Notes under the pieces: generated by a model | Database searches by the model: none | What the model was told of the DNA's origin: nothing | Seen by the model: the letters and a program-made list of their open reading frames with translations, nothing else | Origin: Isoetes taiwanensis | Lineage: Eukaryota; Streptophyta; Lycopodiopsida; Isoetales; Isoetaceae | DNA: 64,000 nt | NCBI GenBank assembly: GCA_021234155.1 | Contig: JAJEKV010000002.1 | Location: 31,983,645 to 32,047,644 of the forward strand | Direction of reading: 5' to 3' | Program-made: the position numbers and the translations under genes | Shown: positions 12,220 through 61,677 of the stretch, one piece after another | How positions within the stretch are numbered: position 1 is the first letter of the stretch | Layout: every line of letters starts with the position of its first letter

Positions 12220-12911
12220 CGCATCGATCGAGACATCGGTCGCCATTCTAGAATGGGGACGAGCATGCATGTCTTGCATGCATCACATGGCGGGCGATGC
12301 CCGTTTTGGGTTGGGAGTTCGCTATTTCGGTGGCGTTTACGCATCCACGTCTCATCGGCGGCTTCCTCTTCTCTCAGCGGTACCTTATTCTCTTTGAACC
12401 CTCCCTCCCCTTCTTTGTTTATTGTATTGTGCACAATTTTACGTTTATCATGTTTTTCCACCATTTGGGTGATGCTTTCCACCCATTTGGGTGATGCTAT
12501 TCTCACGGTATGTTTGTGTTGTCTCGTTTGTTGTGTTGGTGATGTGCAGGTACAGGTTGGCGAGCGGCATCTGTTTCGACTTCTCCATGCGGGGGTTTTT
12601 GGGAGCGATGTCTATGCCTTACGTTTGTCTAAGCCCCTTGCCCAAGGCTTATCACTAGGGTTTTTCCTCGAAAACCCGAAAGGGCGGGGTTTTTTAATCC
12701 CGGTGATAAGCTTTCGGCAGGTACATCAGCCACTCATCTATTAGCATTGTATTTTTTGGGGTCCAAGTGATATAATTGGATTTCCCTTTATTTTTCGTGG
12801 GTAGTTCGCATGTGTGCGGCTACCCACTGTCCACCATTGTAGAAAATCTGCTGAGATGAATGAGAAGCCTATCAGGCGGTTTGTTGGTTTCTTGCGAGTC
12901 CCATTCTAGAA
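12220..12911. mobile_element. Probable insertion inside LINE copy 1
   Basis: Copy B reads AACCATTTAATTGATGTC across this point. In copy 1 the two halves are about 690 bp apart. A 12-bp direct repeat CCATTCTAGAAT at 12243-12254 and 12901-12912 may be target duplications, but 23 extra bases lie to the left of the first copy. The insert carries its own stem-loop of the second subtype at 12661-12700 followed by GGTGATAAGCTTTCG, so it looks like the 3' end of a related LINE or SINE. Confidence 0.5.
12661..12700 (+). other. LINE 3' stem-loop, subtype with GAAAGGG
   Basis: CTCGAAAACCCGAAAGGGCG followed by GGGTTTTTT. AAAACCC pairs with GGGTTTT. Same subtype as 15047-15085. Confidence 0.7.
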
Positions 12912-12940
12912 TTGATGTCAGCAGTCTTATTGCTGCCACG

Positions 12941-12982
12941 GTTTTTCCCTCGAAAACCCTTCGGGGCGGGGGTTTTTTAATC
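12941..12982 (+). other. LINE 3' stem-loop, subtype with TTCGGGG
   Basis: CTCGAAAACCCTTCGGGGCG followed by GGGGTTTTTTAA. It sits about 80 bp before the short-repeat tail of LINE copy 1. Confidence 0.8.
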
Positions 12983-13058
12983 CGGGCAGTAATGTGACTG
13001 CTGCACTTTTTGTATTGGGTCCCATAGGCCGATTGGTCTGCGTGGACGATAAAAACAA

Positions 13059-13135
13059 TTCTATTATATTCTATTCTATTCTATTCTATTCTATTCTATT
13101 CTATTCTATTCTATTCTATTCTATTCTATTCTTTT
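13059..13135 (+). repeat. (TTCTA)n tail of LINE copy 1
   Basis: About fourteen TTCTA units with one TATATT interruption, directly after GGACGATAAAAACAA, the conserved end of this LINE family. Confidence 0.9.
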
Positions 13136-13872
13136 TTCTAGCTTCTTTAAGGCTTCTGTCATTATATTTTTCTCGATTATAGTATGGGGCACCATTTTTT
13201 ATCTTATGGCCTGGTCAATGCTAACATGGTTTTCTTAAATGATGTGCTTGGGTGTGACTAAATATTCTTCTTTGATTGGTGGTGCTTTGCAGTACTATGG
13301 CTTCTTGGTTGACACCAATTAGCGATATGTAGCAAAATCGAGCCCCCGTATTTCATATTCTAAAATCTTAGGCAAAGCCATATAGAGGTTCGATATTCCC
13401 TCAAAACCTTAGCCGAAACGTATTTCATATTTCAAAATCATAGGCGTCTCCAATCATAAATGAGTATAAGCGAAACGAGAGGTGCCCAGAGGCCCCAACA
13501 TATGATCTGGGCCATAGGATTGACGAATCCGACGACTGTGGTAGTCCAGGGTGCACTTGGGTCATATTGTTTCTTTAAATTTTGATGAGATTAATTCTTG
13601 AATTTTCTAGGTTGGTCTAGTCATCGTCGACACCTTTCTTTTCTCGTTTCTCTCACACGCACTTCTTTATAGCTTATATAATTGATCTTTCTCTATAGCT
13701 TATATGATTGATTACCACTAGTTATTGATACTTGTTCTTGAGCATTTTTATTCTCTTCATATTAACCTGTATTCTATCTTCCCTACGTCTTTTGACATCT
13801 ACAACCCATCTTCAATGATGTACCTCAGCTTGTATCCATCTCTTTCTTGATGCTTTGGCGCAGGATATCTTT
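13136..13872. other. Spacer without supportable gene
   Basis: I see only short chance ORFs and a repeated phrase CGTATTTCATATT.(C/A)AAAATC(T/A)TAGGC near 13350 and 13425. Confidence 0.4.
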
Positions 13873-13963
13873 CTCTATTCTATTCTATTCTATTCTATTC
13901 TATTCTATTCTATTCTATTCTATTCTATTCTATTCTATTCTATTCTATTCTATTCTATTCTAT
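13873..13963. repeat. (TTCTA)n microsatellite, about 18 units
   Basis: Pure pentanucleotide array. Unlike the array at 13059 it has no conserved LINE 3' end next to it on the left, so it is either a LINE tail whose body was lost or an independent expansion. Confidence 0.9.
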
Positions 13964-14379
13964 CTCATCTTTTTCTGCTTATCTTGTTTTTTCTTGCCAT
14001 CCATATTTACACTTAGGGTGTATGAAATGGATTGTTCCTCTTCTTTTGGCCATATAATATTGCTTGTTTGATATATAGAGTCTCCCAAGAATGCAATGGT
14101 TCTATGTCATCATAGAACTATTATTCTTGGGAAGACGTCATATCATTGGCCTATTTTTATTGGATTTTTCCCTTTTTTCTTTTGTTTCTCTACATATTGT
14201 CATTGTCTTCCAGTCCATTCCTATCGGCCTTCTCTTTGAGCGTTTTCTTTCTTTCTTCTTCTTCTTTCTGATCTCCCTCCCTCCCTACCCTTTTTTACAT
14301 CTCCATATTTTGTTTATGCATTTGTTGAATTTCTTGACGCATGTCCTTTTGTCTTTTCACTCTAGTTTCCTTTTGCATG

Positions 14380-15010
14380 GGCGGATGATATTCCCCATAC
14401 TAGTTTGCAGTTGTTTATCCTGGCTAGGTGGATGCTCTTCCCCGTCTTATTATTATTCTTCTTTTGGACGGATGTTCTTCCCCGCTCTAGCTCGCACGAG
14501 TTACTTCTGGCAGAGCGGATGTTCTTCTCTATCCATGTCATGACTTTATATTCATTTCTGGATTTCATTTTTCTGGGCTTTCCTCTAGGCTTACTACGAT
14601 TCTTAACGGGTGTCTTCCTTTGAGAATGTGGCTAGCATACAGGTTCTTCTATTGGTTTTTGGCGTTATTTGGAGCTGGCATGGTTGGTGCTTGGTGTGTT
14701 AGTCTACCTGCGCGTAGAGATCGTTCGACATATTGTTGCTAGTCCCAGACCTTATCTTCATCAGTGATATCACTCTTTGGGCTTTGTTCTTAGTGCAGTA
14801 AGATCAATTACTCTCTTTTTGCAATTGAGACGATATGGGAGTGTGTTGACACTGAGTTTCTTGAAGTTGGGCGTATTTTGAGAGGCGTCATGCTTTGATC
14901 TTTTCATTTTTGGCATTTTTTGGAGTTGGCTGCTGACACTTAGCACATGTAGTTTGTTGGCGCATAGAGACCATTCGACATATTGATTCTTGTTCAGATT
15001 TTATCTTCTT
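14380..15010. repeat. Diverged internal repeats in T-rich sequence
   Basis: GCGGATG..(A/C)TTCCCC phrases recur at about 14381, 14430, 14470 and 14515. A longer block, GCG.(G/A)TAGAGA.C.TTCGACATATTG, occurs at about 14712 and 14962 and is preceded in both by TTTTTGG(C)..TTTGGAG(C/T)TGG. No coding potential is convincing. Confidence 0.45.
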
Positions 15011-15046
15011 TTATTATATCGAACTTAGTCCATTTTTTATCCTCAT

Positions 15047-15085
15047 GGTTTTCCCCAAAAACCCGAAAGGGCGGGGTTTTTAGTC
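15047..15085 (+). other. LINE 3' stem-loop, subtype with GAAAGGG
   Basis: CCCCAAAAACCCGAAAGGGC then GGGGTTTTTAG, followed by GTTGATAAGATTTCG as in the stem-loop at 12661. It lacks a recognisable LINE body upstream. Confidence 0.65.
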
Positions 15086-15177
15086 CAGTTGATAAGATTT
15101 CGAACTTTGAGTTTTTATGGCTTTACTTCTTACTATGTAAGACCCTTGGTGATTGTCTAGTTTTGGGGTTGCCCTCC

Positions 15178-16512
15178 TAACTGTGGTCAGTTTGTTGTTG
15201 GCAAAACTACTGACCACTATTGTTGAGCAACAATTGACGGCATGGGAAGAGGACGAAAGGCACACGCGCGCGCGCACACACGCACGGGCATGCACACGCG
15301 GGCGTGCACACACACACGCGCGTGCGGGTGCACACTCTCTCTTGTACAATCAGAGTTTAGGTCCAAACACTCCAACACATACCATCTTTCACATTGCACA
15401 CTTTGATACAAGATAAAAGAAACAAATGATAGGATTTGTATTCTACTTTGTGGACTTTTCCAAAGCTTTTGATATGGTCCTTATTGAGAAACTATAGAAA
15501 AGATTGATGTTATTGGGAGTCCCCAAGTAATTACAAAATGCAATGTACATGCTCTATGAAACATGCTCAACATGACTACCACCCTCAGGAAGGGTTATCA
15601 ATAACAGCATTGGAGCCCCCAAAGGTGCCCACTTTCGCTTATGCTATTTGGACCGTACATTGATCAGCTGGAGGATTGGCTTGCATAGCATAGAGTTTAC
15701 ATTTTTTTTTCTTCTTTTTTTTTTTTTTTTTTGGGGGTAATGGGGGAGGAACAAACTTGCTCACCATGTCATGCAGATATCTATGCAGATGTAGACCTCT
15801 TAGCCTACACCCCACAGGTATGCAACAACATCTGGATGCCTTGGACACTTTGCAAAATCTCAGGAATGCGCGTCAATTTGGCAAAATTAAGGTTCTCCTG
15901 ATGTCATCCTTGAGGCAACAGGGGCAGCCTTGCTTCAGTTACCAAAGCAAGATGTGAAAGTGGTGCAAACATACAAGTACCTGAGGATGGAGTTTACTAC
16001 TACCATATATTGGGATACTTGTATCAAGCAACATGTGACAGTAGGTTGAAAGGCATTCCATGCAATGTAAAACAACTATTACAGAGCAAATCCTTACGAT
16101 TGGCCTCATCAGTCACACTTGTTTAGGGTGCTGGTGGAGTCGGTACTTCTGTATAGAGTGGAAGCATGGGGGCCAGTGATATCCTTATTACTTTGGGGGA
16201 CTTGGAATGAGTACAAAAGACCTTTCTAACTCGAGCACTTAGAGTCAAATCCACGGCCTCATATAAAATACTCCTGCAAAAGACTGGCTTTCTGTCTCTA
16301 TAATGAGTTGCTTGGGGGCGTCAGGTGGTCAACATGAGAGACTCTTGCCTTCTAAACCTTGCCTACATAATGGCTATTGGTGCCTTAAAATGCATTGGAA
16401 GGAGAAATAGGCTATCCGGTTCTCCAGATAGAATGTGTAGGAACAAGGGTGCATAACAATGAGAACCACAATAGCCTTGAATGGTATCTAGATGAATGTT
16501 TCCTGACTAAAG
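15178..16512 (+). pseudogene. LINE copy 2, decayed RT fragment
   Basis: The order of RT motifs is kept but frames are lost. 15178-15260 matches the VSSVFAKLL..IVEQQLT segment. 15445 has YFVDFSKAFDMV. 15605-15690 matches GAPKGA and YIDQLEDWLA. 15780-15880 carries ADVDLLAYTPQ and HLDALDTL. 15955-16270 matches the YLGVEF, LVE..LLY.VE.WGPV and VKSTA.YKILLQ segments. Insertions include a CACACG-type microsatellite (15258-15334) and a poly-T tract (about 15700-15734). The copy ends near 16512 within the C-terminal region. Confidence 0.75.
15258..15334. repeat. CACACG/CGCGCA microsatellite
   Basis: Alternating purine-pyrimidine dinucleotides of AC/GC type lie inside LINE copy 2 and replace part of its RT sequence. 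This composition can adopt Z-DNA in vitro. Confidence 0.85.
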
Positions 16513-17820
16513 TTTTTTTTTTCCTTCTATTTTTTGAAGGAACGAGATGATTTTTTTATTAATTAAAGAAAAACATACAAAAGTTTTTGGTAGTCAACAG
16601 AAGGAAGCATGCCAAATCAAAGCAAAGTTTTAAAGGTTTACAGTATACAAAATATAGTAACAAAAGTTTAAAAAACACAACAGAGATATAGTTGACCTCG
16701 TCAACCTTACAGGATAAATCTTTAGGAGCTAATTGAAAGAGCAAAATCCGATAGGAGCCGAGGGTTTTGACAACATCAAGTAACCAGAGACAAAGGCATG
16801 ATTGTAGAAATAGTGAAAATGTAGTCATGTCCATTTTTTCTCCCCCAAACAACTGTGCTAATAACCTGCAAAACCAAAAAGATCTTATTGCATCCAGGAA
16901 GAGGCTATGCTATCAATTTGGGCTGATAGGTATCTTGGGATCAGCAGTATTTATGGTAGAGGTGAACAAGTGGTTATATTTTTTAGGTGAAGCTGTCTGC
17001 AGTGCCCTTGACATAAGTATCTGCCATCCACATATGATCTCTTATCAACCTGTAGAAATCCTAGTGCACCATGAGCAATAATAGAGTACCATAGGCATCA
17101 GCTAACATTCTGTGAGTGTAATATAACTGCCTAAACTTAGCAAATTGCCTTCTAGTAAATTCCTGATGATGGTTGTAAATAAACCAGTACATATATGCCA
17201 TCTGGAAAACTACTCTAGTAAAAGTTGCAGCCCAGATCCTCTCTCTTGCTTTACACACTTCATTATCCCACGATAATTTGCCCGACCCGATCACCGATTG
17301 GGGGACTTGACTGATGCTCATGTGGCCTTACATCTCCATACAGCTTCACTTCATACGTCCTTGTGCCCCTGCCAAACTTTCTTTTCTGATGGCCTCGACA
17401 CAGCTCCATATACCTTAAATCAAAAGGAATTTTTAGCATCTTGTGAAAGACAAATTTGGCTGAAACAAATTAAAATACCCCTCATATGAACCATATCGAT
17501 CCCAACACCTATCATAATTGTCAGCAGTAATATTGGGATAATAGTGCTTTGGAGTTTGTAAAGACATCCCATCACAGATCTCAAATTAATCCTACGCTTG
17601 TCAGGAGTACTTGTTAACACATTTGCCCATGGAAAAGCATTGAGAGATTGCATCCATTTGCACAGGAGCAGACCATCTCAAAATTGAAACAGTCAGATGA
17701 GCCGAGAAAGAGTGAGAAAATAGGGTCTCCCAGTGCTGTTAGCTAGAACTTATTGCAGATGAGAGCCACATCCATCAACACTGCCCCAAATTTTTGCCAA
17801 TGCAGGCACAATATGATGGG
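16513..17820. other. Stretch without a supportable gene
   Basis: It begins with T-rich sequence and TTTTTTTATTAATTAAAG. ORFs on both strands are short and overlap, so I call none of them. Confidence 0.4.
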
Positions 17821-17926
17821 TTGGTTATACGTAACCAACTGCTACATGTAATAATAATCTCACCTTCGATGGGCACATTGCTTCTTACGTCTAGGAGATA
17901 ATAGACGTAAGGGCTCATTTGTGCCC
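17821..17926. repeat. Nested inverted repeats upstream of a LINE tail
   Basis: TTGGTTATACGTAACCAA at 17821-17838 is a perfect palindrome. A second structure pairs GGGCACA (17871-17877) with TGTGCCC (17920-17926) outside and CTTACGTCT (17884-17892) with AGACGTAAG (17903-17911) inside. Confidence 0.8.
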
Positions 17927-17985
17927 TCGAGCATTACATTGACATATACAAATTTATAGTTCATCAATAGGCCCACTACTGCCAA

Positions 17986-18118
17986 GTTTTTTTCCTCGAA
18001 AACCCTTCGTGGCGGGGTTTTTTTAATCTTACACAGTAATGGGCCGACTGTTCTCTGTTTGTTTTGGTGTAGTAGGCCATCTGGTCTTTGTGAATGATAA
18101 AATTCAATTCAATTTTTG
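17986..18118 (+). mobile_element. LINE 3' end fragment with TTCAA tail
   Basis: The stem-loop CTCGAAAACCCTTCGTGGCG then GGGTTTTTTTAATC is followed by CAGTAATGGGC, then TAGGCCATCTGGTCTTTGTG, GATAAAA and a short (TTCAA) tail. This is the family end with a different tail unit. Confidence 0.7.
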
Positions 18119-18286
18119 TTACAATTTGAATTAGAAATTTTCATCTTAAAATAATACTTGAGTTTAGAACTGAGACCGAGTTGGTAAAAAGAATAAAGTT
18201 CTTAAGATGATAATCAATAATGATGAGAACTAAATTCAATTGCATTGTTAATCTATATTTAGGCTTAAAGAAAAGCGAGGGAGGAC

Positions 18287-18501: not shown

Positions 18502-18509
18502 GGGAGGAC

Positions 18510-19376: not shown

Positions 19377-19694
19377 CCTAATTTTCAGCTTTTCCGTTTA
19401 TTCTTGCGGTTTTTCTTGCTCCACATTTCATCCGTTTTGCAATGAATAGGGAGCTCTCTTCTGGTATTGCCGTAACTCTGACACTTTAATCCGCACAGCC
19501 TTCCATTTCTTCAGGACAATTTGTTTTTCCGCTGGCCCCAACAGCAATTTCGGTCCTCGTTTTTGCAAGTTCTTGATCCATTTACGACCCTGCCATCTGA
19601 CTTGCCGACCGGAATCGATTGTCCACAATCTAAGGATTCGTTATGTATTATATTTTGATTTCGAAGATGAGTTTTCTTGGAAAGAAAGAAGAAC

Positions 19695-21107
19695 ATGGCA
19701 CGCTCAAAATCAGGAAATCTTTTCTGTTTCCTTGGTAAATTTAAGCTTGATGGATGGATAAAGAAGATGATGTTTAAAATGAGGCAAACAATGGCTAGAA
19801 CAAGGTCTAAGTACGGATCAAAGGCATTTTCTATCGCTTTAGGAAGCTGGGGATTTCTTACCGCTGTTGCAAATTCTTTAAAATTCAAGCTCTTTTTCAT
19901 GTCGGGGCTTATGATATTGGTAACATTGTTTGCATGCTCACATCTTGGGCTGAAACAAGGGAATACATGGCTACTACGACCAGAAAGAAACGAGCAACAG
20001 AATCTTGCCCTTTTGCAGAGCCCTGATGACACCATTCTTGTTTATACGCTCATGGATCCAGGGGAGGCAGCTGAGCGTGAAAAGGTTAAGCAGATTCTTG
20101 ATGGCAGCTTAGAAGGCAGCAGCAGATTTAGATATCACTGGCATCTGGCAAGGGGGGAAAAGGCTGGGAGTCGTTTCGATTATCTTGATCGTCCTGAAGT
20201 TTATGATCGAAGAACCCAATTCCGGCGATACAGAGATAATTTTGCAATGGACATTTCTAATCCAAAATACGCTCCATACATGGGAAGATTCAGGCAACTC
20301 TTACAAGCTTGGGTTCGCAATAAAAGGTATGAGCCCCATATTATGAAAGATCTTTTATCCACAGTCAAGTCCAGTATTGACAGATTTTATACAAACAAAA
20401 GCATGATTACTTCAAGCACAACCCAGCGTTATACAAGCTGCGCCGTAGTTGGAAATAGTGGAATTCTGCTTAATCGATCATATGGACAGTTTATAGATAG
20501 TCATGAAGCTGTGATTCGGCTAAATAATGCCAGAATAGATGGGTTTGAAAATTGGGTAGGTTCTAAAACTACATTTTCTTTCATCAATAGCAATATTCTT
20601 CATACATGTACTCGCAGAGTGAAGTGTTCTTGCCAGCCTTACAAAGAAATTGTTCCGACGGTCTCTTACATGTGCCAGATTCTTCATTTTCTGGATGTGG
20701 CATACTGTGAAGACCTACAGGGTGCCCCCTTACTTATCACAGATCCAAGATTTGATATACTTTGCACAAGGATCGTGAAATATTACTCACTGAAGAAATA
20801 TTTTGACAATACAGGAAAATCTTATGAAGAATGGAATAAGATTCACGACGGTGCCCTATTCCATTACTCTTCTGGCATGCAGGCTGTAATGCTTGCCCTG
20901 GGTATCTGTGATAAGGTTGACCTATTTGGGTTTGGCAAGGACCCCAATTCTAAGCATCATTATCATACAAACCAGAAGGCCGAACTTGCTCTCCATGACT
21001 ATGAAGCAGAATACATTTTTTACAGAGTTCTTTCAAGCAAATCTGGTTTTATTCCTTTTCTGAGTGAGTCTGGAGTGAATCTTCCTCCTCTCACAATTTT
21101 TGGCTGA
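19695..21107 (+). CDS. GT29 family sialyltransferase-like glycosyltransferase, Golgi type II membrane protein
   Basis: The uninterrupted frame from ATG 19695 (context AACATGGCA) to TGA encodes 470 residues. A basic cytosolic N-terminus is followed by a membrane anchor at about 65-83 (FKLFFMSGLMILVTLFAC), a stem and a lumenal catalytic domain. Sialylmotif L spans about 249-295, starting CAVVGNSGILL and reaching DSHEAVIRLNNARIDGFE. Motif S is near 390-414 (HYSSGMQAVMLALGICDKV, then DLFGFG). HHYH lies at 421-424 and the H-x4-E motif is HDYEAE (434-439). All conserved GT29 elements are present. Length and layout match the plant SIA1/SIA2 (MGP2) group, Golgi proteins linked to pectin or arabinogalactan glycosylation and pollen function. 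Plants lack typical sialic acid, so the donor is uncertain. I see no intron. An alternative start is the MM at residues 25-26. This is the only clearly intact host gene here. Confidence 0.93.
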   Translation: MARSKSGNLFCFLGKFKLDGWIKKMMFKMRQTMARTRSKYGSKAFSIALGSWGFLTAVANSLKFKLFFMSGLMILVTLFACSHLGLKQGNTWLLRPERNEQQNLALLQSPDDTILVYTLMDPGEAAEREKVKQILDGSLEGSSRFRYHWHLARGEKAGSRFDYLDRPEVYDRRTQFRRYRDNFAMDISNPKYAPYMGRFRQLLQAWVRNKRYEPHIMKDLLSTVKSSIDRFYTNKSMITSSTTQRYTSCAVVGNSGILLNRSYGQFIDSHEAVIRLNNARIDGFENWVGSKTTFSFINSNILHTCTRRVKCSCQPYKEIVPTVSYMCQILHFLDVAYCEDLQGAPLLITDPRFDILCTRIVKYYSLKKYFDNTGKSYEEWNKIHDGALFHYSSGMQAVMLALGICDKVDLFGFGKDPNSKHHYHTNQKAELALHDYEAEYIFYRVLSSKSGFIPFLSESGVNLPPLTIFG

Positions 21108-38872: not shown

Positions 38873-39090
38873 CTTGTATGTTGATCGAGACCTGATCCCG
38901 GCCCAACAAGAAGACCCCAGGCACGAGTTGGCCAAAGTTAAAAGCATTCGCAGACAGGGAGGAGCTGCAGCACTGATTCGGGGTAACACCTTCTGTTGCT
39001 CACATATCTCAGGCTGCTTCCACTTTTGTCACCCCCCCTTCTGCTGTCGCCACTGAATCTCCACCTGCTGCCCCTGCCAACAAATAGGAA
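38873..39090 (+). pseudogene. LINE copy A ORF1, 3' part ending in TAG
   Basis: It resumes with LYVDRDLIPAQQEDPRHELA, then KVKSIRRQGGAAALIRG. A linker rich in P, S, T and A follows (after one small frameshift: TPPSAVATESPPAAPANK) and ends at TAG. Copy B ends the same way (PAANK then TAG). The downstream endonuclease frame continues in phase after the stop. Confidence 0.75.
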
Positions 39091-39960
39091 TTGTGCCTCC
39101 GCATGGTCTTCTGGAATTGTCGGAGCTTCCCATGGCAGAAGGGAGATAGTCTCAACTCAGTTGCTGCAGACATGGATCTCATCTTCCTCATGGAAACATG
39201 GGAGCATGCAAGACACAGGATACCTAACTTGCCAGGATACTAGCACTACTCAATCTTCAATGATTGCACAGGAAAGTGGGGGCATGGGGGGGTTGCCTGC
39301 TACTACCGAACAACCTTGGCACAATCAATCTCCTTGTTCAAGACAGACAAGCACAACCGGTACCTGTGGGTGCGTGTGCAAAACTGCAGTAGCAGACCCC
39401 TCTTTGTGGCAGCCTGCTACTTTCCACATGCAGAAAGCAACTTCTATCACACCCACTCGGATGTGGATAGGCTGGACCCCTATGTCGATCTATATGATGA
39501 CATCTGGCCAAAGATAAGCGGTTAGGCGTGTCATACTCCTTGGAGACTTCAATGCGCGCACCGGGGTAGAACAACCCATGAGATTTGATCCCTTGACTGA
39601 TGATGTATTGCAGTTGCATCCTGCAGAAGGAGCTTGGCCACAAACATCAGATGACAATCAGGTCACGCGCTATGGTCGACAGTTGCTTTTGCTCTGCAGT
39701 ATCTTTGACCTGGTAATCTGCAATGGACTAGCACAGTGGCCTTCCACTCGCAAGAGCACTTGTAGGCGGGAAAACCGAGGGGCGATCTAGTGTGGTGGAC
39801 TATGTCTTTGGTGCCCGAAAGGGGATATGCATGTCGTCAAGCACTTTCAGGTGGGAACAGCTAATAGGGATGAAGAGATCGACTCAGACCACTTACCACT
39901 TTACTTGAAGTTGGCTTGGCAGGTTGTGCGAACCCCCGGTGCAACAACTCCTCACATGCC
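39091..39960 (+). pseudogene. LINE copy A APE-type endonuclease domain
   Basis: Motifs in order: FWNCRSFPWQKGD (N), FLMETWEHA (E), a GHGGVACYY loop, ACYFPHAESNFYHTHSD, then after a frameshift LLGDFNARTGVEQP (D-x-N) and later EIDSDHLPLYLKLAW (SDH). These are the conserved residues of the apurinic-endonuclease fold that nicks target DNA for target-primed reverse transcription. Frameshifts near 39525, 39650 and 39790, and the lack of ATG after the TAG (TTG instead), mark it as broken. Confidence 0.8.
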
Positions 39961-40429
39961 TCAACTGCGATTGGATTATGAACATGCAGGGGCTTATGCC
40001 CAGATGCTTATAGATGACTGGCAGAAATTTTGCAATATCCTACACTAGAGCAAATGCATGTGACTACCGACCGATGTGCTTAGGGATCCCGGCGAGAGGT
40101 GCTTTGGGATAAGCCGCCCACCGCCGACCTCCGTGAACACAACCTTCCCACGTAATCAATGGTTTGATGCGAGTGCAAAGGAACACAAACGCCGGCTCGC
40201 CAAGTCACGACCGCTTTACGCCCACATGCGGTCGACAAGACGGCAGCGGCTTCCTTAAAGCTAAGAAAGCCAGGTACATTGCAGCGCATCAAAGGGAAAT
40301 GTTTTACCTCCTGGAACATCATCCCATGACCTTCTGGCGAAGGGTTCTTAGAAAGCCAGTATAGCCCACAGGGAATATCACTCCCGAGCAGTGGAGACAA
40401 TACTTGCAATGACTATCGACCCTCGGGGT

Positions 40430-42365
40430 GCACATGCGGCATTACCCTTGCAAGAAGGCCCGGTCTTTGGAAATCACAGATTCGGACGTGGAACAAGGCT
40501 TGCAGCGTCTTGCCAATGGGAAAGCCCCAGACTTGGATGGTATGCAGGCAGAATTGCTTAAGTGGGCAGGGCCGTCCATAATACCAGTGCTGACCGCCTT
40601 GTTCAACAAGGCATTATAGGAAGGTTTCCCGCTGCAGTGGACCAATAGCAGAGTTGTTCCCATATATAAGGCATGCCCAACCAATTATCGAACAATCATG
40701 GTCAGTTCGGTGTTTGCAAAATTGCTTCTTTGGGATTCTCGGCAGCGGTTGACGGGTTGGGCGAGGCAAAGCAGAGGTGTGGGCCCTCACCCGTAGGATT
40801 GAGACCACGGCACTCAACCATTGACCACATCTTCACGTTGCGAACTCGATTGAAGACGGCGGGAACCGCCGTCGGGATCTATATTGTTGCTTTGTGGATT
40901 TTGGCGGCGCGTTTGACATCGTGCCTCGGGGAAAAACTATGGGCAAGGCGCAACAAGCGGGGTTTCTGTAGATTTGCGAGAATGCATTAATGCGTGCTAT
41001 ACGAAAGATGCTCTGCGGTTGCGGCAGACAAGCCAACCATTTGATAGCGATGTCGGGGTTCGTCGGGGATGCCCCTCTCCCCAACATTGTTTGGGCTTTA
41101 CATTGATCAATTGGAGAGCTGGCTTGCTGATAATGGGGGCGATGGAGCTCACCTTCTCTATCAGATCATCAGACAGTTAATATATGCTGATGATGTGGAC
41201 CTCCTAGCTTACACACCAGCAGACATGCAACGACATCTCGATGCCCTAGACACATTCTGCCAAGCGACTGATATGCGCGTCAACCTGGCCAAGACTAAGG
41301 TGGTTTTCATATCATCTTCACATCAGCCGAGGGTCCCCTCCTTCGAGGCCAAAATGTGGAAGTTGCATCCACATACAAATATTTGGGAGTGGAGTTTCCT
41401 TCTACTATGCACTGGGACACATCCATACGGCCACGAAACAGTGGCGGCAGTGGAAGGCACTATATGCAATGCAAAACAATAGTCATAGAGCGGAGTTGTA
41501 TGATTGGGTCCATCAGTCACGCCTGTTCAAGGTCTTAGTGGAGCCTGTCCTTTTATACGGGGTGGAAGTATGGGGCCCAGTAGTATCACTTGCTACGTGG
41601 AATGACTTGGAGCAGGTCCAGAAAGCCTTCTTAGTACGAGCACTAGGGGTGAAGTCCACAGTTCCATATCAAATTCTACTGCAGGAGACAGGATTCTTGC
41701 CTCTTCAGAGGGCGGCCCTTGATCGGCACATTGTCTATTTTCAGAAGGTGGTCAATATGGACGATGCTCGTCTCCCTAAACTAGCTTATATCATGGCAAT
41801 GGAGCCGCAGCGCCTCAAGGCCTGCTGGAGAGCTCAATGGTTGGCTAGATAGAATGTGCAGGAGCACAGGTGCATACATGTGCAAACAGAGGCAGATCGC
41901 CATAGCTTGAGGCAATATCTTGACGATTGCTTCCTCAGCAAGCTTTGGGATGCCAATGCCCTTGAACAGGTCAAGACAACACACTACCAGCGCCACATAA
42001 ATCCCACATTGGAACGAGGCCCGCAATGCTACCTGCGTACCCACTTGCCCATGAAAAGGCGCAGACTCATTGCCTCCATTCGCACAGGGGCACATCATCT
42101 TCGAATTGAGACAGGCAGATGGATTGGTGAGCCACGCCAGGACAGGCTCTGTCAATGCTGCCAAATGGGAGTCATTGAGGATGAATCTCATACCCTTCAA
42201 AGTTGCCCAACATATGATCAAATTAGGACACGATATGCTGAGTTGGTCAGGCCTGGCCAGCCGTTACATGTGACATTGAGCACAGCATCCGTACGGGTGC
42301 TGGGATCATATCTTCAGGAGGTTATGGACATGCGAGATCAGCTATGTCCTCGGGCACACACTTGA
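40430..42365 (+). pseudogene. LINE copy A reverse transcriptase and C-terminal zinc knuckle
   Basis: RT blocks in order: GLQRLANGKAPDLDGMQAEL, ALFNKAL, ANYRTI-like TNYRTIMVSSVFAKLL, LRPRHSTIDHIFTLRT, CFVDFGGAFDIVPRG, RRGCPLSPTLFGLYIDQLES, YADDVDLLAYTPADM and NLAKTKVVFISSS. The thumb follows (LVEPVLLYGVEVWGPVVSLA, VKSTVPYQILL). The end has RLCQCCQMGVIEDESHTLQS, then CPTY, a CCHC-type knuckle. YADD is the catalytic aspartate pair. Indels near 40615, 40850-41070, 41340-41480 and 41850 break it into frames; the last 169 codons are intact. Confidence 0.85.
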
Positions 42366-42424
42366 CATGTATATAAACATTGATGTATACTTGTACAGTT
42401 TAACAACATTCTTATTACTGCCAC

Positions 42425-42470
42425 GGTTTTTCCCTCGAAAACCCTTCGGGGCGGGGGTTTTTTAACCCGG
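42425..42470 (+). other. LINE 3' stem-loop of copy A
   Basis: CTCGAAAACCCTTCGGGGCG then GGGGTTTTTTAACCCGG, 60 bp after the ORF2 stop. Same subtype as 12941. Confidence 0.8.
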
Positions 42471-42535
42471 ATAGTAATAAGTTTGCTGCGCTCCTTATGG
42501 GTCCCATAGGCCGATTGGCCTCAGTGGACGATAAA

Positions 42536-42558
42536 AAATCATTCTCATTCTCATTCTT
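42536..42558 (+). repeat. (ATTCTC)n tail of LINE copy A
   Basis: Three hexamer units follow GGACGATAAAAAATC. The other copies use pentamers (TTCTA, TTCAA) or TTCC. Confidence 0.75.
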
Positions 42559-48040: not shown

Positions 48041-48085
48041 ATCCTATTGATATATACAGATGTAACTTTATCCTCTTATTGTTAA

Positions 48086-48330
48086 GGTTTTCCCTTGAAA
48101 ACCTTTCGAGGCAGAGGTTTTTTAATTCTTAGTAATGGTTGTACTAGGTTATTTTATAGATCCATGGCCTCTTGGCCTTCGTGGACATTAAAAACTCTAT
48201 TCTATTCTATTCTCAAAAACACTTATCGGCGACGATTTTTTTTATCCTAGGCAGTAATGGGCTTACTTGTATTGGGTCTTTTATATATTGGGTCGCATAG
48301 ACTCTTTGGTTTCCATGGACTATAAAATTC
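48086..48330 (+). mobile_element. Two LINE 3' ends in tandem
   Basis: Unit 1 (48086-48214) has stem-loop CTTGAAAACCTTTCGAGGCA then GAGGTTTTTTAATT, AGTAATGG, TTGGCCTTCGTGGACATTAA and a (TTCTA)n tail. Unit 2 starts inside that tail (CTCAAAAACACTTATCGGCG, stem-loop at 48212-48250) and repeats AGTAATGGGC, GGGTCGCATAGACT, CATGGACTATAAAATTC. One LINE end probably inserted into the tail of another, or both arose in a template jump. Confidence 0.7.
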
Positions 48331-53257: not shown

Positions 53258-53340
53258 GATTAGAAGGAAGGAAGGAAGGAAGTAAGTTTATTTTAACGTC
53301 CACGGAGGCCAGAGGCCTATGAGACGGTACATGCAGAGAA
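53258..53340 (-). mobile_element. LINE 3' tail scrap with (TTCC)n
   Basis: On the minus strand CTCATAGGCCTCTGGCCTCC, GTGGACGTTAAAATAAAC and then (TTCC)n matches the family end CATAGGCCGATTGGTCTGCG, GTGGACGATAAAA. Only about 80 bp of the LINE was inserted. Confidence 0.65.
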
Positions 53341-55373: not shown

Positions 55374-55540
55374 TGATTCTAGAAACAACAGATATCATTC
55401 TTACAAATTTATGGAAGCATAAAGCCTGAGGTGAAGATGTAGAATTGCTGCATAGAACCCTGGCTATGCAGAGCCAAGACTGGAACCGAACCTGTTTTAG
55501 ATTTTCTACAGTTCCATCTGCTGTTAAACATTCAAACACA

Positions 55541-55654: not shown

Positions 55655-56279
55655 ATTTGGCGATGAACCTGATGAATAAAGCATGCCAATCCAATTGTCG
55701 AACATGCATGGGGCAACAACTGCAAGAAGGGATATGGGCATCTGCTAAAGTCTCGGATCGATAAGGCAACCCCAAACCCTAGAATTTGGTAATCAAAGGC
55801 AAAGCCACAAATTTGATTTTTGGAATACCTGGAAAGTTTTCCGCCAGCTAAAAGCTTCTAGACCTTAGAAAACTAACCTGAAAAAAAAATCTAAAAAGTT
55901 TTCGGCATGTCGGAAAAACCAAATTTAAATAATAGATAATAATTATAATTATCGCTATTGGAAGTGCTCAACTCTCGGGCTTATCTCGACTCTCACTACC
56001 AAACAAATTTAAATAATTGTAAACATGGGTCACTTCTCACAAATATCTAGCCAAAATGTCGTCGGGAGATTGAGGCGATTGCATGGAAGAGGAGTACATA
56101 TAGTGTGGACAACCCTCTGATGTATATGGGACATGGCATAGACCCTACTTCTAAGTTGGAAACCACGTGTGGACCTATTATGATTTAACCCTTAAATACG
56201 GGTCGTGTAAAACTTCAATGTCAAACTTGCAAAACTATTTTTTATTGCTTAGGATATCTTTCTTATTGTTTCTTTCACA
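55655..56279. other. Spacer between the minus-strand gene and LINE copy B
   Basis: It probably contains the promoter of the minus-strand gene. No repeat or gene is supported. Confidence 0.35.
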
Positions 56280-56520
56280 CGTTTTCACTCATAACAGGAG
56301 ATCCAGAAGTCCGTTTCAGCTGAAATTTGTTGCGTTGGAAAGCTCTCTTAGCAGCCTTTCCGATGGTGTATGATATGACCGTGGTTGGCTAAGTTATTTC
56401 TGTGATAACAGCAATTTTCCGGCCGGTTTGCTCTTTTGGATTCTGGATTAGGGCTTCACATATTCCCTTGACTTGCCCTAATTTGTTGGTCCGTTTGATT
56501 CAAGATCTGTCTAGGTACCC

Positions 56521-58287
56521 ATGGACACTCTCAGGACATCCCCAACCCAACTCGAGAACCAGACCCAGACCCAGACTCAGACACAGCTGCCTGACATGCC
56601 CACTTGGGAGGAGCATACAGCGGCCCACGCCAAGAAGAGACCTAGACCTAGCGATCGGGGCCAAGGGAGAAGCCTCTTCCATGAAGAAGGAGGCTCGTGC
56701 AAAGGCTCAGCGGCAAGCTTCGGCTCAACCCAAGCTTACGGTCGATAGACCCAGCTTTGCAGACCTCAGATGCTGATTCCACAAGGATGGCACACCAGTC
56801 ATGCCATGAGAGGTGGAGACAAACACAGGCGATGGTTGAGGATCACACCACTCAGATCTCACACCTGGCAGAAGAGCAACAAGCCTCCGTCCCCCAAGTG
56901 CTTAAGAAGCAACTGGCTATAGTAAAGCAACGGTTTGCGTGCATTGAGACCCAAGTGCAATAATTGCTTGACGGTATTCGCTGCTGCGGTTTGAAAGGGA
57001 GCGGGATAGCGGACTCTTGGCGGCCTCCGGGCACAAATAGACACCATGTCTACCGAGAGATGAAGTTATAATGAAGGACAAGGAGAGAATTGAGCGAGGG
57101 AGATGGTCAGCGATATCTCCCGTCTTCGATCGGACATTGCGGATGTCATTGCCACTCGGGGGCATTTCGGATAGCAACTAACGAAAAGTCGGTTGCTCAA
57201 AGAAACCCCCGAGCAGGATCAGCACAATGGAGATCACCTTCACATCGGCCGGATGATGTAATTACCTCTTGGATACGAAGTTGGAACAGCGTTCCCTTGT
57301 TCAAGAGCAAGAGGCACCACGAGCTCTGAAGCTACAATCCAACAGGGAAAGGACTCCATGCCAATGCACACGAGGCCTTGCAAAATTGTGTATCCGGTTG
57401 GGCGGCGAAACACCAATTCAGGGGCCGAGCTCGGCTTGTAAGGCGGAGGCAATCTCAGGCACCTCAGCTGCCACCCATGCTCAAGCACCCATGCGAAGTC
57501 AGTCTAGGCAGGCACCACGACGCCCTACTTCACCATTCCCTCCACGCCAACAGGACCCTCCTGTTCATGGACATCGGACAGCGCCTTCAACTCACAGACA
57601 GCAGCCGGTACATGCTGTCCCAGCAAACGTTGATCCACGTGAGCTTAGTGAACGCAGACGGAGAGGTCATAATTTGGTGATCCGTGGCCTGCCGGAAGAA
57701 GAGGGAGAGAATCTCATTCACCGACTCCAGATGCAGATCATCAATCGTATGACATTGCCTGGGCCTGTACACATTGCTCGAGCGGTAGTCATGGTGCTCG
57801 GCGTTACGCCTACAACCGTATTGTCATATTCACAAGAGCGTATATGCAAGTACGGATGCCATCTGCTAGCGCCGGGCAAGCAATTTAAGGGAACATCCTT
57901 GTATGTGGACCAAGACCTCACCCCAAACAAGAACAAGAGTCCCCAGCGTGAGCTCACCAAGGTTCGAGGCATCCGCTGTCAAGGAGGAGCTGCGGGACTA
58001 GTTCGAGGCAAGATGCACATTTTCCGCTCACCGAATGTTGCTGCAGATCCTCCAGGCCATTCAGCTGCAGCCCCCACTGATCATGCTCCTCCACCGTCTG
58101 CTCCAGCCCCATGCCCCTTTGCCGCTTTGCCACTACTCCTCAGTCATATGCCACCCCAACTCCTACTACTTCTCACTCTGCCCCAACCCCTACTGCTTCT
58201 CACTCTGTCCACATGACTCAGTCTGCTACCGCTTCCCACTCTTCCCCCACAACTCAATCTGCGCATGCCCCTGCTGCTAACAAATAG
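56521..58287 (+). pseudogene. LINE copy B ORF1
   Basis: It starts at ATG 56521 (MDTLRTSPTQLENQTQTQTQ) with a PTWEEHTAAHAKKRPRPS segment. It runs through shifted frames with helical, Q/K/E-rich parts (LAEEQQASVPQVLKKQLAIV). From 57269 one long frame has a basic, P- and Q-rich hinge, then LVIRGLPEEEGENLIHRLQM, INRMTLPGPVHIARA and GTSLYVDQDLTPNKNKSPQR, ELTKVRGIRCQGGAAGLVRG. It ends in a P/A/S/T/L-rich linker and PAANK-TAG. The VIRGLPE and LYVDQDL blocks correspond to the RRM-like and C-terminal RNA-binding segments of LINE-1-type ORF1 proteins. The frame shifts once more within the linker. Confidence 0.75.
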
Positions 58288-58290
58288 GGA

Positions 58291-59110
58291 ATGTGCCTTC
58301 AGGTGGTCTCCTGGAATTGTCGAGGTTTCCCATGGCAGAAGGGGGATAGTCTCAACTCTGTTGCTGCAGGTATGGATCTCATCTTCCTCATGGAGACATG
58401 GGAGCACGCAGGACACATGCTACCTGATCTTTTAGGCTATCAACATTTCTTAGTCTTCAATAGCTGCACAGGCAAGAGGGGACATGGAGGGGTTGCCTAT
58501 TATTACCAGGAGTCTTTGGCACAGTCGGTCTTCCCGCACAAGATTGCCGGAACACAACCGATTACTTGTAGGTGCGGTGCGAGAATTGTAGTGGCAACCC
58601 TCTCTTCTTAGCTGCTTGCTACTTTCCACATGCAGAAAGCAACTTTTACCATGCCCACTCAGATGTGGACAGGCTAGCTCCATATGTCGATCTATATGAT
58701 GACATACAGCAACATAGACAGTTGGGTAGTGTGGTACTCCTTGGGGACTTCAATGCACGGACAGGAGTAGAGCAGCCCATGAGACTTGATCCTTTGGCTC
58801 GGGATGTGTTACATTGCGCCCACGGAGGCGCTTTGGCCAATTTAACATCGATGATAGTCGTCCGCAGCGCTTTGGCGGCGATTGCTTCTACTATGTGGTG
58901 TCTTTGACTTGGTAATTTGTAATGGCTTGGCACAGTGGCCTTCCTCCTGTAAGTGCACCTGCAAACAAGAGAATCGTGGTGGAGGATCTAGTGTGGTGGA
59001 CTATCTATTAGTCATTTGGCGGGATGTACATTTGAGCAACCACTTTCGGTAGGAACGCACAGGCGGTAGGGATGAGGGAGCGGCACTCGGATCACCTTCC
59101 ACTCTACCGC
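58291..59110 (+). pseudogene. LINE copy B APE-type endonuclease domain
   Basis: It begins GMCLQVVSWNCRGFPWQKGD three bases after the ORF1 TAG and in the same frame. It has FLMETWEHAGHM, GKRGHGGVAYYYQE, AACYFPHAESNFYHAHSDVD, LLGDFNARTGVEQP and, in another frame, SDHLPLYR. All landmark residues of the fold (N, E, D-x-N, SDH) can be found, but frameshifts near 58610, 58905 and 59060 break it. The first 106 codons are intact and the best example of this domain in the window. Confidence 0.8.
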
Positions 59111-59259
59111 AGTTGGCTTGGCGGTCGCTGCTAGAACCCCTTCTACGGCAGCTCCTTGTATACCTCGCTATGCGATTGGATTATGAGAGGCAAAGGATTA
59201 TGCTGATATGCTCATAGATGACCTTTCAGGAATTTTGCAGGCCCCCACGCTAGAGCAAC

Positions 59260-61560
59260 AAATGAGTCGGTGATTGAGCTCCCTTGGCATTGCAAGAAAG
59301 ATGTTTTGGGATAGCATGCCCGAGAGGTATCACGGTTCGCAACATTCCCGTAATCGGTGGTTTGATGCTGAGTGTAAGGAATACAAATGCCGGCTCCGCC
59401 AGATCACAGATCCTGCAATGCGCCCACATGCCACCACACAGTATCGTGCTTTCTTGAAGGCAAAGAAATCTCAGTACATTGCACGTCATCAAAGGGAAAT
59501 GTTTTCCATGTTGAAAAGCCATCCTAGAATCTTTTGGCGCAAGGTTCTTCGAAAGCCAGCCCAGCCTACGGGGAACATCACTAATGAGCAGGGGAACAAT
59601 ACCGCAAGCAACTCTATGATCCTCAAGGGATACGAGCACTCATACCCCCACAGAATGGTCCGACATTAGAAATCACAGAGGATGATGTTACCCGTGGTCC
59701 TGCAGGCGTTTGGCCAATGGGAAAGCAACGGACCGGATGGTATGTAGGCGAGTTGCTCAAGTGGGCGAGGGAAGCCTATGGTACCGATCCTAACCACTAT
59801 GTTCCAGTGAGCGCCTGAGGAAGGATTCCCCCCCAGTGGACCACAAGCGAGTTGTCCCCATTTACAAAGGCGAGGAGATCCACAGAGTTCAACCAATTAC
59901 CGAACAATCATGGTCGGGTTCGGTGTTTGCCAAACCGCTAATGGGCATTATTGAGCAACAGTTGACCGGTGGGCGTAAACAGCAGTGTCGAAGCTCTCAC
60001 AAGCGGGGTTCGGACCCGGCATTCAACCATTGATCATATCTTCACATTGAGGACTTTGGTTGAGGATAGCGTAAACCGTCCGCCGGGACTGTATTGTTGC
60101 TTTGTTGACTTTGCGAAGGCTTTTGACACCGTGCCTCGGGGAAAAGTTATGGGAAAGATTGCGGCAACTAGAGGTTTCGTGGATATGCAAAATGCAAGAT
60201 ACTGGGTTGTACGAGAGTTGTGCAGGCGGGGGCGCGGATGACGGGACAACCATTCACTAGCGATATTGGGGTCCGCCCGGGATGTCCTCTTTCCCCAACA
60301 TTGTTTTGGTGCGTACATTGACCGGTTGGAACACGGCTCATGGACAATGGGGGTAGCCGGGACCCAACTTTTGCATCAGTCATCGAGACAACTCATCTAT
60401 GAGGACGATGTTGACCTCTTAGCTCACACTCCGGAGGATATGCGGTCTCACTTGGATGCTCGGATACATTACCGCCGGAGCCACAAACATGAGCGTCAAT
60501 CGGCCAAGACCAAGGTGGTCCTAATCTCATCCTCAAGGCCATCCAAGGCCCCTTCATTCACTTATTGAGGGCAACAAGTGGAGGTGACATCCACCTACAA
60601 GTATCCGGGAGTGGAGTTTCCTTCTACACTATCTTTGGGACACTTCCATAAGATTGCGTGTAGCAAGGTCGGAAAGCACTCTATGCAATGAGAACAACAA
60701 CCAGAGAGCGAGAACTATATGATTGGGGGCATCGGGCACATCTGTTCGGGGGTATTGGTAGAGCCCGTTCTTTTGTACGGAGTTGAAGTCTGGGGCCCAG
60801 TGGTGTCCCTTGCTACTTGGAGCAACTTAGAACAGGTGCAGAAGGCCTTCTTAGCACGGACACTCGGAGTGAAATCCACGGTCCCATATCAAATTTTGTT
60901 GCAGAGAGCGGGTTTTCCGCCACTTCGAATGGCGGCCCTTGATAGACACATCGTCTATTTCCGAGAAAGGTGGTAAATATGGATGATGATCGCTTCACCG
61001 TGACTTGGCTTATGCGGTGGCAATGGGACCACAACGACTCAAGAATTGTTGGAAGGATAAAAGAGTGCGATTGGCTAACTAGATGGAATGTCCAGGAGCA
61101 CATGTGCATCCAGGTAGAAACAGAGGCAGATCGTGACAGCCTGAGATGTTATCTTGATGCTTGTTTCTCCAGCAAGCTTTGGGATTCCAGGGGCACGGAG
61201 CAAGTCAAAACAACACATTACAAGCAAAGACATAAATCCCACATTAGAAGCGAGGCCCCTGGCCGCTACCTACGTTCACATACGCCCATGAAAAGCGCGG
61301 GCATATCGCCTCCATTAAGCCGAGGTGCCCACCATCTCCGGATTGAGACATGCCGATGGATTGGGGGGGAGCCGGGATAGGGTTTGTCGGTCTTTGCCGG
61401 GGCGAGTTGTTGAGGATGAGTGTCACACTTTCCAGACACCCGGGCATATGATCGGTCGGACACGCTTATGCTCGGTTGATTAGACCCGATGAGCGCTACA
61501 CATGATGATTGAGGGCGCGACGACGGTGCGCTCACTTTCGGATCATACATTCGGGAAGTC
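59260..61560 (+). pseudogene. LINE copy B reverse transcriptase and C-terminal region
   Basis: The leading segment RHQREMFSMLKSHPRIFWRK links endonuclease and RT. RT blocks follow in broken frames: FAKPLMGIIEQQLT, TRHSTIDHIFTLRT, YCCFVDFAKAFDTVPRGKVM, a GCPLSPTLF-like segment, YEDDVDLLAHTPEDM (the usual YADD altered to YEDD), AKTKVVLISSS, LVEPVLLYGVEVWGPVVSLA and VKSTVPYQILLQ. The C-terminal zinc knuckle is decayed. Loss of alanine in YADD and dozens of indels exclude function. Confidence 0.8.
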
Positions 61561-61630
61561 TTGGACTTGAGGGCTCAGATATGCCCCGATCAACCATTTA
61601 ATTGATGTCGGCGAGTCTTATTCTTTGCCG

Positions 61631-61677
61631 CGGTTTTCCTCGAAAACCCTTCGGCAATTATGGGGGGGTTTTTAATC
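61631..61677 (+). other. LINE 3' stem-loop of copy B
   Basis: CTCGAAAACCCTTCGGCAAT with extra bases, then GGGGGGGTTTTTAATCCG. The extra TTATG in the loop keeps the AAAACCC/GGGTTTT pairing. Confidence 0.7.

Follow-up and report, generated by a model that had tools for sequence, protein, structure and literature searches.

A conserved U-rich hairpin in LINE, copia and Helitron-like elements of Isoetes taiwanensis, a candidate ENE-like RNA stability module

The hairpin in the window and in the genome

The window, the whole 64,000-nucleotide stretch of the Isoetes taiwanensis genome that was analysed, carries on its forward strand a series of LINE ends, a Helitron-like non-autonomous insertion and copies of one conserved hairpin. 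The UUCG form of the hairpin is found at 12920-13001 in a LINE 3' UTR (covariance model score 88.2 bits, fold z -5.45), at 17966-18048 at a LINE end with an AATTC tail from about 18101 (68.1 bits, z -2.28), and at 42405-42486 in the LINE at about 39001-42557 (81.1 bits, z -2.45). An old UUCG-form copy at 48066-48144 precedes a tail from about 48196 (55.6 bits, z -1.07), and an altered one at 61615-61694 belongs to the LINE at about 58210-61769 (31.2 bits, z -1.33). The GAAA-loop form lies within the Helitron-like insertion at 12639-12718 (92.3 bits, z -4.82) and, as a diverged copy for which the tail test described below found no nearby LINE tail, at 15027-15104 (58.4 bits, z -0.63). In old copies these z-scores stay modest, between -0.63 and -1.33.

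A preliminary description of this DNA listed eight loci with a common hairpin. The structure is real, and the covariance model recovered seven of the eight on the forward strand; the copy at 48212-48240, a remnant at a second LINE end immediately after the first tail, is too decayed and fell below the model's threshold. The model was built from 73 of 116 sources, the 43 omitted being the near-duplicates L001-L008 and, within L025-L095, loci that were odd, truncated or redundant; some odd ones (L018, L019, L069, L070) were retained. The arms are inexact at several of the eight loci: CTCGAAAACCC matches perfectly at five (12667, 12949, 17995, 42434 and 61639) and with two mismatches each at 15054, 48094 and 48212, and the other arm, GGGGTTTTTTAA, matches perfectly at three. 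Single arms, with up to two mismatches allowed, exceed chance only modestly in the window, with 21 matches for CTCGAAAACCC (shuffle mean 12.3, maximum 20) and 19 for GGGGTTTTTTAA (against 10.2, with 2 of 100 shuffles reaching 19), whereas the whole structure is well supported. Genome-wide, the two-arm core pattern has 8,600 exact matches and its reversed control none. Rfam gave nothing at gathering scores for the window, and nothing near any gathering score for two hairpin stretches.

Fold and covariation

The hairpin is larger than first described. Beyond a long outer stem come a U5/U6 internal loop, a stem of 5-6 bp, a bulge of AAAA and a cap, CCC-(UUCG or GAAA)-GGG, in which the UUCG and GAAA loops, both stable tetraloops, sit on an identical CCC/GGG stem. 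The arm-matched base changes noted earlier are real, but most of them fall in the outer stem, which had gone undescribed. Among 57 distinct rows, in an alignment that was fitted to the covariance model, double changes occur in 19 of 26 pairs and fill 195 cells, compared with 76.0 after shuffling and 31-59 in slid registers. An unfitted MAFFT alignment (A1) of 21 rows, taken from 49 distinct hairpins with near-duplicates and oddly changed copies omitted, gave 15 of 26 pairs and 90 cells, compared with 36.7 and 17-27, respectively. Covariation in the inner stem is thin, at five cells in total over four of eight pairs. Decayed copies with one changed base showed no clear compensation; most of their changes resemble C-to-T decay, and covariation within them was set aside as uninformative.

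While the outer stem varies freely across the 57 rows, the U and A runs are nearly constant: the AAAA bulge is kept in 54 rows, the 5' run of five U in 39 and the 3' run of six U in 38. The lower GG:CC helix beside the U runs is paired in 95.6% of cells, and the first inner pair is C-G in every row. An additional C is gained or lost jointly with its partner G (50 rows concordant, three discordant, four gapped). In 10 of 16 hand-chosen representatives the fold of lowest energy was the one with the bulged AAAA (stem, U-rich internal loop, stem); an upstream AAAACC:GGUUUU pairing was lowest in four, and an AAAACCC:GGGUUUU stem in two. Where the bulged fold was lowest, the upstream fold lay 0.7-9.2 and the AAAACCC:GGGUUUU fold 2.2-5.5 kcal/mol higher. 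The latter had originally been drawn as the stem; given its invariant A-U pairs and its rarity as the lowest fold, we now treat it as an alternative.

Carriers of the hairpin

Copies of the UUCG form terminate L1-type LINEs about 100 nt ahead of a short-repeat tail, and the distance from core start to tail was 94-123 nt at 21 LINE-end loci. The tails are ATTCT, CTTCC or ATTCTC repeats, not poly(A), as in the (ATTCT)n tract at 13058-13132. A non-LTR reverse transcriptase (RT) is encoded by the UUCG-carrying LINE, with an RVT_1 match (9.2e-11) upstream of the hairpin at 42405, and the C-terminal region of the ORF was found upstream of the hairpin in 14 of the 20 LINE ends for which 900 bp of upstream DNA was available. 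From their motifs, we take these LINEs to belong to the L1 clade. Two of their lineages are 83.4% alike in the 3' region (12919-13072 and 42404-42557) and 71.9% alike in coding DNA (11025-12202 and 41183-42349).

The hairpin is conserved, covarying and placed just ahead of L1-type LINE tails, but it does not mark every LINE end, as had been proposed. A LINE end on the reverse strand at 53298-53327, recognised from its second hairpin (below) and CTTCC tail, lacks it; none was seen in the 320 upstream bases read, and the model had no match on that strand. Genome-wide, the core was present by a strict pattern at 29 of 40 LINE ends, and by eye the 11 others comprised seven 5'-truncated and four altered copies. 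Nor are both loop subtypes LINE ends. In a tail test of 55 loci (40 chosen for variety and seven more from 100 listed genome matches, and eight from another search), a LINE-type tail followed 21 of 23 loci with other loops, mostly UUCG-type, and none of 32 loci with GAAA or AAAA loops, six of which showed just short three-base repeats. Wherever its carrier could be named, the GAAA form sits in Helitron-like and copia elements.

Immediately ahead of the LINE tail lies a second hairpin, GGGUCCCAUAGRCC-NAUU-GGYCU..GUGGAC, which also covaries and is nearer the tail than the first. Its pattern has 5,205 matches in the genome and none in the control. In the window it is found at 13017-13047, at 42499-42529 before an (ATTCTC)n tail from about 42539, and at 61714-61744 before an ATTCT tail from about 61754, the last two in the LINEs at about 39001-42557 and 58210-61769.

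The GAAA-form hairpin at 12667 lies within an insertion of about 700 bp (12219-12911, TCGCATCG...CATTCTAGAA) that splits a LINE copy in its 3' part, with LINE homology resuming on either flank. Its junctions were set by comparison with the homologous LINE near 61590, a single empty site, and no target duplication was present. Asymmetric inverted repeats occur near the 5' end (CATTCTAGAATGGGAC) and at the 3' end (GTCCCATTCTAGAA). The Helitron-like carrier starts with TC, usually after A, and finishes with CTAGAA, usually before T; in the window copy the hairpin ends about 190 nt from the element's 3' end. Asymmetric inverted repeats, absence of target duplication (at one site) and head-to-tail units resemble Helitron2 and HINE elements, while the TC start, the CTAGAA end and an RNA-like hairpin aboard set the carrier apart from them as they appear in the portions consulted of PMC5148889 and PMC7492417. 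Helitron_like_N elements abound in the genome, where 150 of 1,813 candidates were scored, and were not linked to the ends of the GAAA carrier. A tandem-repeat or satellite reading of this carrier was abandoned once two ends and an empty site had been found.

The hairpin also follows a Ty1/copia gene, in 10 exact copies of one form whose DNA is alike. The gene, identified in copy L101 by an RVT_2 match (1.2e-54), stops 39-40 nt ahead of the U run in seven of nine translated copies and is broken in two. Alignment of the 10 copies revealed a G-rich tract and an LTR-like repeat downstream. The hairpin lies after the gene end and before the LTR; its fold z is a modest -1.93, with 10 of 200 shuffles as good. 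A fourth carrier is a family of about 1.4 kb, often with an ATTCT tail, in which the hairpin is 344-526 nt upstream of the tail (found in 8 of 12 copies). A relation to an endonuclease-bearing LINE is suggested for this family from reading its sequence, since Pfam returned no match for the upstream ORF of copy L111. A tRNA-derived SINE was considered as a carrier and dropped: ARAGORN, run with the bacterial code and liable to miss degenerate tRNA heads, found no tRNA gene across 48 loci.

Possible functions and known systems

ENE elements shield poly(A) tails through a triple helix. The U-rich loop of the hairpin, flanked by G-C pairs, matches these elements, the triplex itself being predicted. 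Our preferred explanation, held with modest confidence, is that several unrelated transposable elements carry the hairpin as an ENE-like module for RNA stability. Its presence in unrelated copia and rolling-circle-like DNA elements suggests an RNA-stability device exchanged between elements, and not a tag by which LINEs alone are recognised. The hairpin lies in the 3' UTR of LINE and copia elements. Its U-rich loop would clasp an A tract of the element RNA, either the poly(A) tail or another one, via U.A-U triples, and this clasp would slow RNA decay and leave more RNA for copying. As the 35-nt core is near-identical in all carriers, it most likely spread between them, perhaps by template switching, and did not originate independently in each. 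In LINEs, RT recognition would fall to the second, tail-adjacent hairpin. If this is correct, unrelated transposons share and swap a part that protects RNA, and in a lycophyte LINE the two tasks are separate, the first hairpin serving RNA stability and the second RT recognition.

Several results weigh against this explanation: the LINE tails are not poly(A), competing folds are lowest in six of the 16 representatives, inner-stem covariation is thin, the z-scores of old copies and of the copia are modest, and Rfam gave no match. A plain ENE leaves the AAAA bulge unexplained, and use by the Helitron-like element, which has no known transcript, is hard to interpret since its copies can move without stable RNA. 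Moreover, A-rich test oligonucleotides failed to bind the KSHV ENE or the TWIFB1 dENE, according to the part of PMC10855403 drawn on here, so resemblance alone does not predict binding. More tentatively, the stability module may itself be mobile across L1-type LINEs, copia and rolling-circle-like elements, as an ENE-like or self-contained triplex selected in each. Considered as such a mobile part, the hairpin brings its own A tract and a cap that can be either UUCG or GAAA.

It had been suggested that this hairpin serves RT recognition, as in stringent LINEs, in which case the other carriers would have been captured by, or ride on, LINE machinery. The frequency of the core at LINE ends, with the misses truncated or altered by eye, and a 3' region more alike between lineages than the coding DNA are consistent with this, and a precedent exists in a compensatory hairpin at monocot L1 and SINE 3' ends (PMC3747384, in part). 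We nevertheless consider it rather unlikely. The hairpin is not confined to the LINE of one RT and its SINEs, being found behind the copia gene and in Helitron-like carriers without a LINE tail, and this argues against a sole role as a LINE RT tag; copia and rolling-circle-like DNA elements are not known to use a LINE RT. The fourth family has its hairpin hundreds of nucleotides from the tail, no tRNA gene marked a SINE among the 48 loci searched with ARAGORN (which degenerate heads may escape), and the second covarying hairpin is closer to the tail. Stringent recognition survives better for that second hairpin, which is more likely than the first to be the RT-recognition signal of these LINEs.

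A nuclear export or packaging element, in which a host or element protein reads the A bulge and U loop without any triple helix, would suit the 3' placement in LINE and copia, the conserved AAAA bulge and U runs and the distribution over unrelated elements. It seems improbable: no protein partner is known here, and a U-rich loop between G-C pairs fits an ENE more directly. Joint conservation of the AAAA and both U runs, together with alternative folds that are lowest in six of the 16 representatives and near in several more, could instead reflect a self-contained triplex, with AAAA paired to the 3' U run and the 5' U run placed in the groove, or a switch in which AAAACC shifts between upstream and downstream U partners. 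The bulged-AAAA fold is favoured by the cap swap and by the joint gain or loss of the extra C and G, and the energy model contains no triplex term; we regard such a triplex or switch as decidedly improbable. That the hairpin acts at the DNA level, or is hitch-hiking sequence with no RNA function, is very hard to credit even though it occurs in a DNA element and its copies are all repeats whose relatedness inflates the counts, since long stems are retained across diverged subfamilies and G.U pairs on the given strand exceed A.C mismatches (97 vs 44 overall; Helitron-like 20:3, copia 11:0, fourth family 8:0, LINE only 58:41, with LINE pair types per column even, at 21 vs 20).

ENE and dENE triple-helix elements were reportedly described in plant and fungal transposon RNAs by Tycowski in 2016. 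Such triple helices are already known in plant LTR and hAT elements. The ENE of the copia element Evade, a U-rich stem-loop between the ORF and the 3' LTR, requires G-C pairs flanking its U-rich loop and supports transposition, as stated in the sections used of PMC12501189, and the rice hAT DNA transposon TWIFB1 carries a dENE (PMC10855403, in part). In the literature searched, part of it as excerpts, we found no report of an ENE-type triple helix in a plant LINE. The hairpin of monocot L1 and ZmSINE2/3 elements (Ohshima) is likewise a plant L1 3' UTR hairpin with compensatory changes; as given in the portion consulted of PMC3747384, it has a conserved UCU loop and CGAG after the stem and is shared with SINEs within a 3'-end stretch of about 50 nt, whereas the Isoetes hairpin is larger, farther from the tail and common to non-LINE elements. 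Like ENE and dENE elements, the Isoetes hairpin is a stem-loop whose U-rich internal loop has G-C pairs on its borders. In LINE and copia elements it is placed in the 3' UTR, and in copia it lies, as in Evade, between the pol stop and the 3' LTR (PMC12501189, in part). Unlike them, it has an AAAA bulge, a UUCG or GAAA cap and, in LINEs, a tail that is not poly(A), its triplex is a prediction, and it recurs as one near-identical module across LINE, copia, Helitron-like and fourth-family elements.

Elements that carry the first hairpin

The core pattern of the first hairpin, CTCGAAAACCC-N2-12-GGGGTTTT, has 4,269 + 4,331 exact matches in the 1,658,258,908 bases (1,110 contigs) searched, and its reversed control has none. 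Exact counts by cap and stem length are 2,159 for UUCG with a 6-bp stem, 1,608 for GAAA with 5 bp, 68 for UUCG with 5 bp and 10 for GAAA with 6 bp. Among the fetched loci (L numbers), a small fraction of the two largest groups, each exact form belongs to one kind of element; a 5-bp stem also occurs in the LINE ends at window position 17995 and L079, both outside the four exact forms. Sequence search and reading of the eight window loci first credited with the hairpin arms found the inner motif exact at five; it is diverged at two and nearly lost at 48212.

Recurrent odd changes at CTG/CAG/CCGG-like sites (e.g. GCTGC to GTCGC or CTTTG) were seen across lineages in many hairpin copies, including L025, L028, L029, L037, L038, L045, L053 and window 61615-61694. 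The Isoetes taiwanensis assembly is described as 1658.30 Mb in 204 scaffolds and 909 contigs, from nanopore reads (PMC8566536). Because the assembly is nanopore-based, methylation may have led to base-calling errors in repeats, and such errors, if present, would distort variant counts of hairpin copies.

The preliminary description took both loop subtypes for LINE ends, a view the GAAA form contradicts. Among 55 loci fetched, a LINE-type tail was found at none of the 32 with a GAAA or AAAA loop (six gave merely short three-base repeats), whereas 21 of the 23 with other loops had one; within the group of 23, the tail of L024 is 517 nt off and that of L042 degenerate. A pattern search placed a Helitron-like 3' junction in 20 of the 32; one (L023) is a copia element and 11 did not match the junction pattern, although L005, L014 and L015 have related ends by eye. 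The Helitron-like element starts with TCGCATCG, preceded by A at nine of ten outer 5' junctions (C in L006), and ends in CTAGAA (CTAGA in L047, CCCAGAA in some subfamilies), with T following at all 17 pattern-matched outer 3' junctions and G in L005. Its inverted repeats are CATTCTAGAATGGGAC / GTCCCATTCTAGAA, and the single empty site compared shows no target duplication. The segment holding the window motif at 12667 is missing from a homologous LINE near 61590. Head-to-tail 358-bp units carry both element ends without the hairpin, and diverged subfamilies (L015, L026, L027, L034, L055) keep the long stem with a different sequence. Asymmetric inverted repeats are given as a mark of Helitron2-like elements (PMC5148889), and HINEs are described as having tandem repeats and no target duplication (PMC7492417); the GAAA carrier shares inverted repeats with the former and, judged from one empty site, tandem units without target duplication with the latter. 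At L003:171-1586, two 358-bp units and one of about 700 bp stand head to tail and share some 180 bp of 5' end and 40 bp of 3' end, with the hairpin in the last unit only (compare window 12219-12911). A short, partly palindromic tandem repeat, CCACCCATTTGGGTGATGC, lies within the element at window 12455-12498.

The 10 exact GAAA 6-bp matches (L023, L096-L104) resemble one another in DNA sequence, and each follows the end of a Ty1/copia polyprotein. Nine copies were translated: in seven the reading frame stops 39-40 nt short of the U run, in L102 it is shifted and in L104 broken; L023 was judged by eye. RVT_2 is matched at 1.2e-54 in L101, and in the alignment of the 10 copies the hairpin is followed by a G-rich tract together with an LTR-like repeat. 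The outer-stem stretch TTATTACTGCTAAGG is common to copia and one LINE lineage (L021, L083). A fourth family was read in 12 of the 68 UUCG 5-bp copies (L024, L105-L115). Alignments to its reference, L110, begin at position 359 in six of 11 copies, giving a length of about 1.4 kb, and later in L106, L108, L111 and L113, while L024 is clipped by the fetched stretch; an ATTCT tail lies 344-526 nt downstream of the hairpin in eight of the 12.

The two hairpins of LINE ends

A second hairpin, GGGUCCCAUAGRCC-NAUU-GGYCU-NN-GUGGAC, adjoins AUAAAAA and then the tail in LINE ends. Its pattern has 5,205 genome matches (control, 0), and the first 40 places listed were fetched as a LINE-end sample in which the first hairpin was not required, although some overlap the core-pattern sample. 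A short tandem tail, of type (ATTCT)n, (CTTC)n or (ATTCTC)n, is present in 38 of the 40, and LINE C-terminal coding sequence lies upstream in 14 of the 20 with 900 bp of upstream DNA. The first hairpin had been proposed for every LINE end; its core is found by the strict pattern in 29 of the 40, and a covariance search and a reading of 320 upstream bases found no first hairpin at the minus-strand LINE end near 53.3 kb of the window. By eye, seven of the 11 misses are cut before or within the hairpin (L057, L060, L066, L067, L077, L088, L090) and four are altered (L059, L063, L064, L078).

Stem combinations in 30 distinct matched copies of the second hairpin are GGCC/GGTC (18), GACC/GGTC (7), GGCC/GGCC (4) and GACT/GGTT (1), with no GACC/GGCC. 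In the window, A-U/G-C exchange in the stem, with AUAAAAA behind, is seen at 13017-13047, 42499-42529 and 61714-61744. We infer that the second hairpin is a better candidate for recognition by the reverse transcriptase (RT) than the first. Elsewhere in the window, an open frame of 478 codons at 19671-21107 contains a GT29 (sialyltransferase-like) domain (E 2.5e-37).

Fold, covariation and strand

In a MAFFT alignment of 21 diverse copies, two-sided changes occur at 15 of 26 pairs of the first hairpin, in 90 cells against 36.7 when shuffled and 17-27 in slid registers; further pair types show no excess (40 against 39.0 shuffled). A model-fitted alignment (79 matches, 57 distinct), which is biased towards the model and whose counts are inflated by kinship among rows, gives 19 of 26 pairs and 195 cells against 76.0: 14 of 16 pairs in the outer helix, one of the two GG:CC pairs adjoining the U loop, and four of eight in the inner helices (5 cells). 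At the pair adjoining GG:CC, read by eye, Helitron-like copies have G-C and three LINE lineages have C-G; copia, the fourth family and one further LINE lineage have A-U.

When one helix was forced at a time in 16 representatives, the fold with the U-rich internal loop was lowest in energy in 10, an upstream AAAACC:GGUUUU pairing in four, and the AAAACCC:GGGUUUU stem of the preliminary description in two. That stem is thus not upheld as the main fold, and its four A-U pairs, invariant in 21 rows, provide no evidence for pairing. Folding z-scores lie between -5.45 and -0.63, with -1.93 for copia and -3.77 for the fourth family. Hairpin-bearing RNA of the sense strand is favoured, with related rows a caveat, since the given strand has more G.U pairs than A.C mismatches (97 against 44 over all rows). 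The excess is clear in Helitron-like, copia and fourth-family rows and weak in LINE rows (58 against 41; pair types per column, 21 against 20).

A proposed ENE-like part and its known counterparts

ENEs, whose U-rich loop protects poly(A) tails by triple helix, are marked by a U-rich internal loop flanked by G-C pairs in the 3' UTR. The first hairpin may be an ENE-like RNA part of transposable elements, independent of their class. A tag by which the LINE RT recognizes its own RNA fits less well, as the module is also present in copia and the rolling-circle-like element; the class-independent part fits better because one module is common to all three. The ENE-like reading is weakened by a LINE tail that is not poly(A), by an AAAA bulge that it does not explain, by the competing folds and by the presence of the hairpin in a DNA element. 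A literature search found no report of an ENE or triplex in plant LINEs or of Isoetes LINE hairpins, although a 2016 ENE survey may hold related motifs.

The Arabidopsis element Evade is described as having an ENE stem-loop between its ORF and 3' LTR, with triplex behaviour that depends on the U run and adjacent G-C pairs; its deletion lowered RNA stability and gave fewer new insertions, and the same source cites about 200 ENE-type motifs, most of them from plants and fungi, with a strong association with LTR elements (PMC12501189). The rice hAT element TWIFB1 has a double ENE (dENE), and that report states that its own A-rich test oligonucleotides bound neither the KSHV ENE nor the TWIFB1 dENE (PMC10855403), so resemblance alone is not proof. 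Like ENEs, the first hairpin has G-C pairs on either side of a U-rich internal loop, and its triplex is putative.
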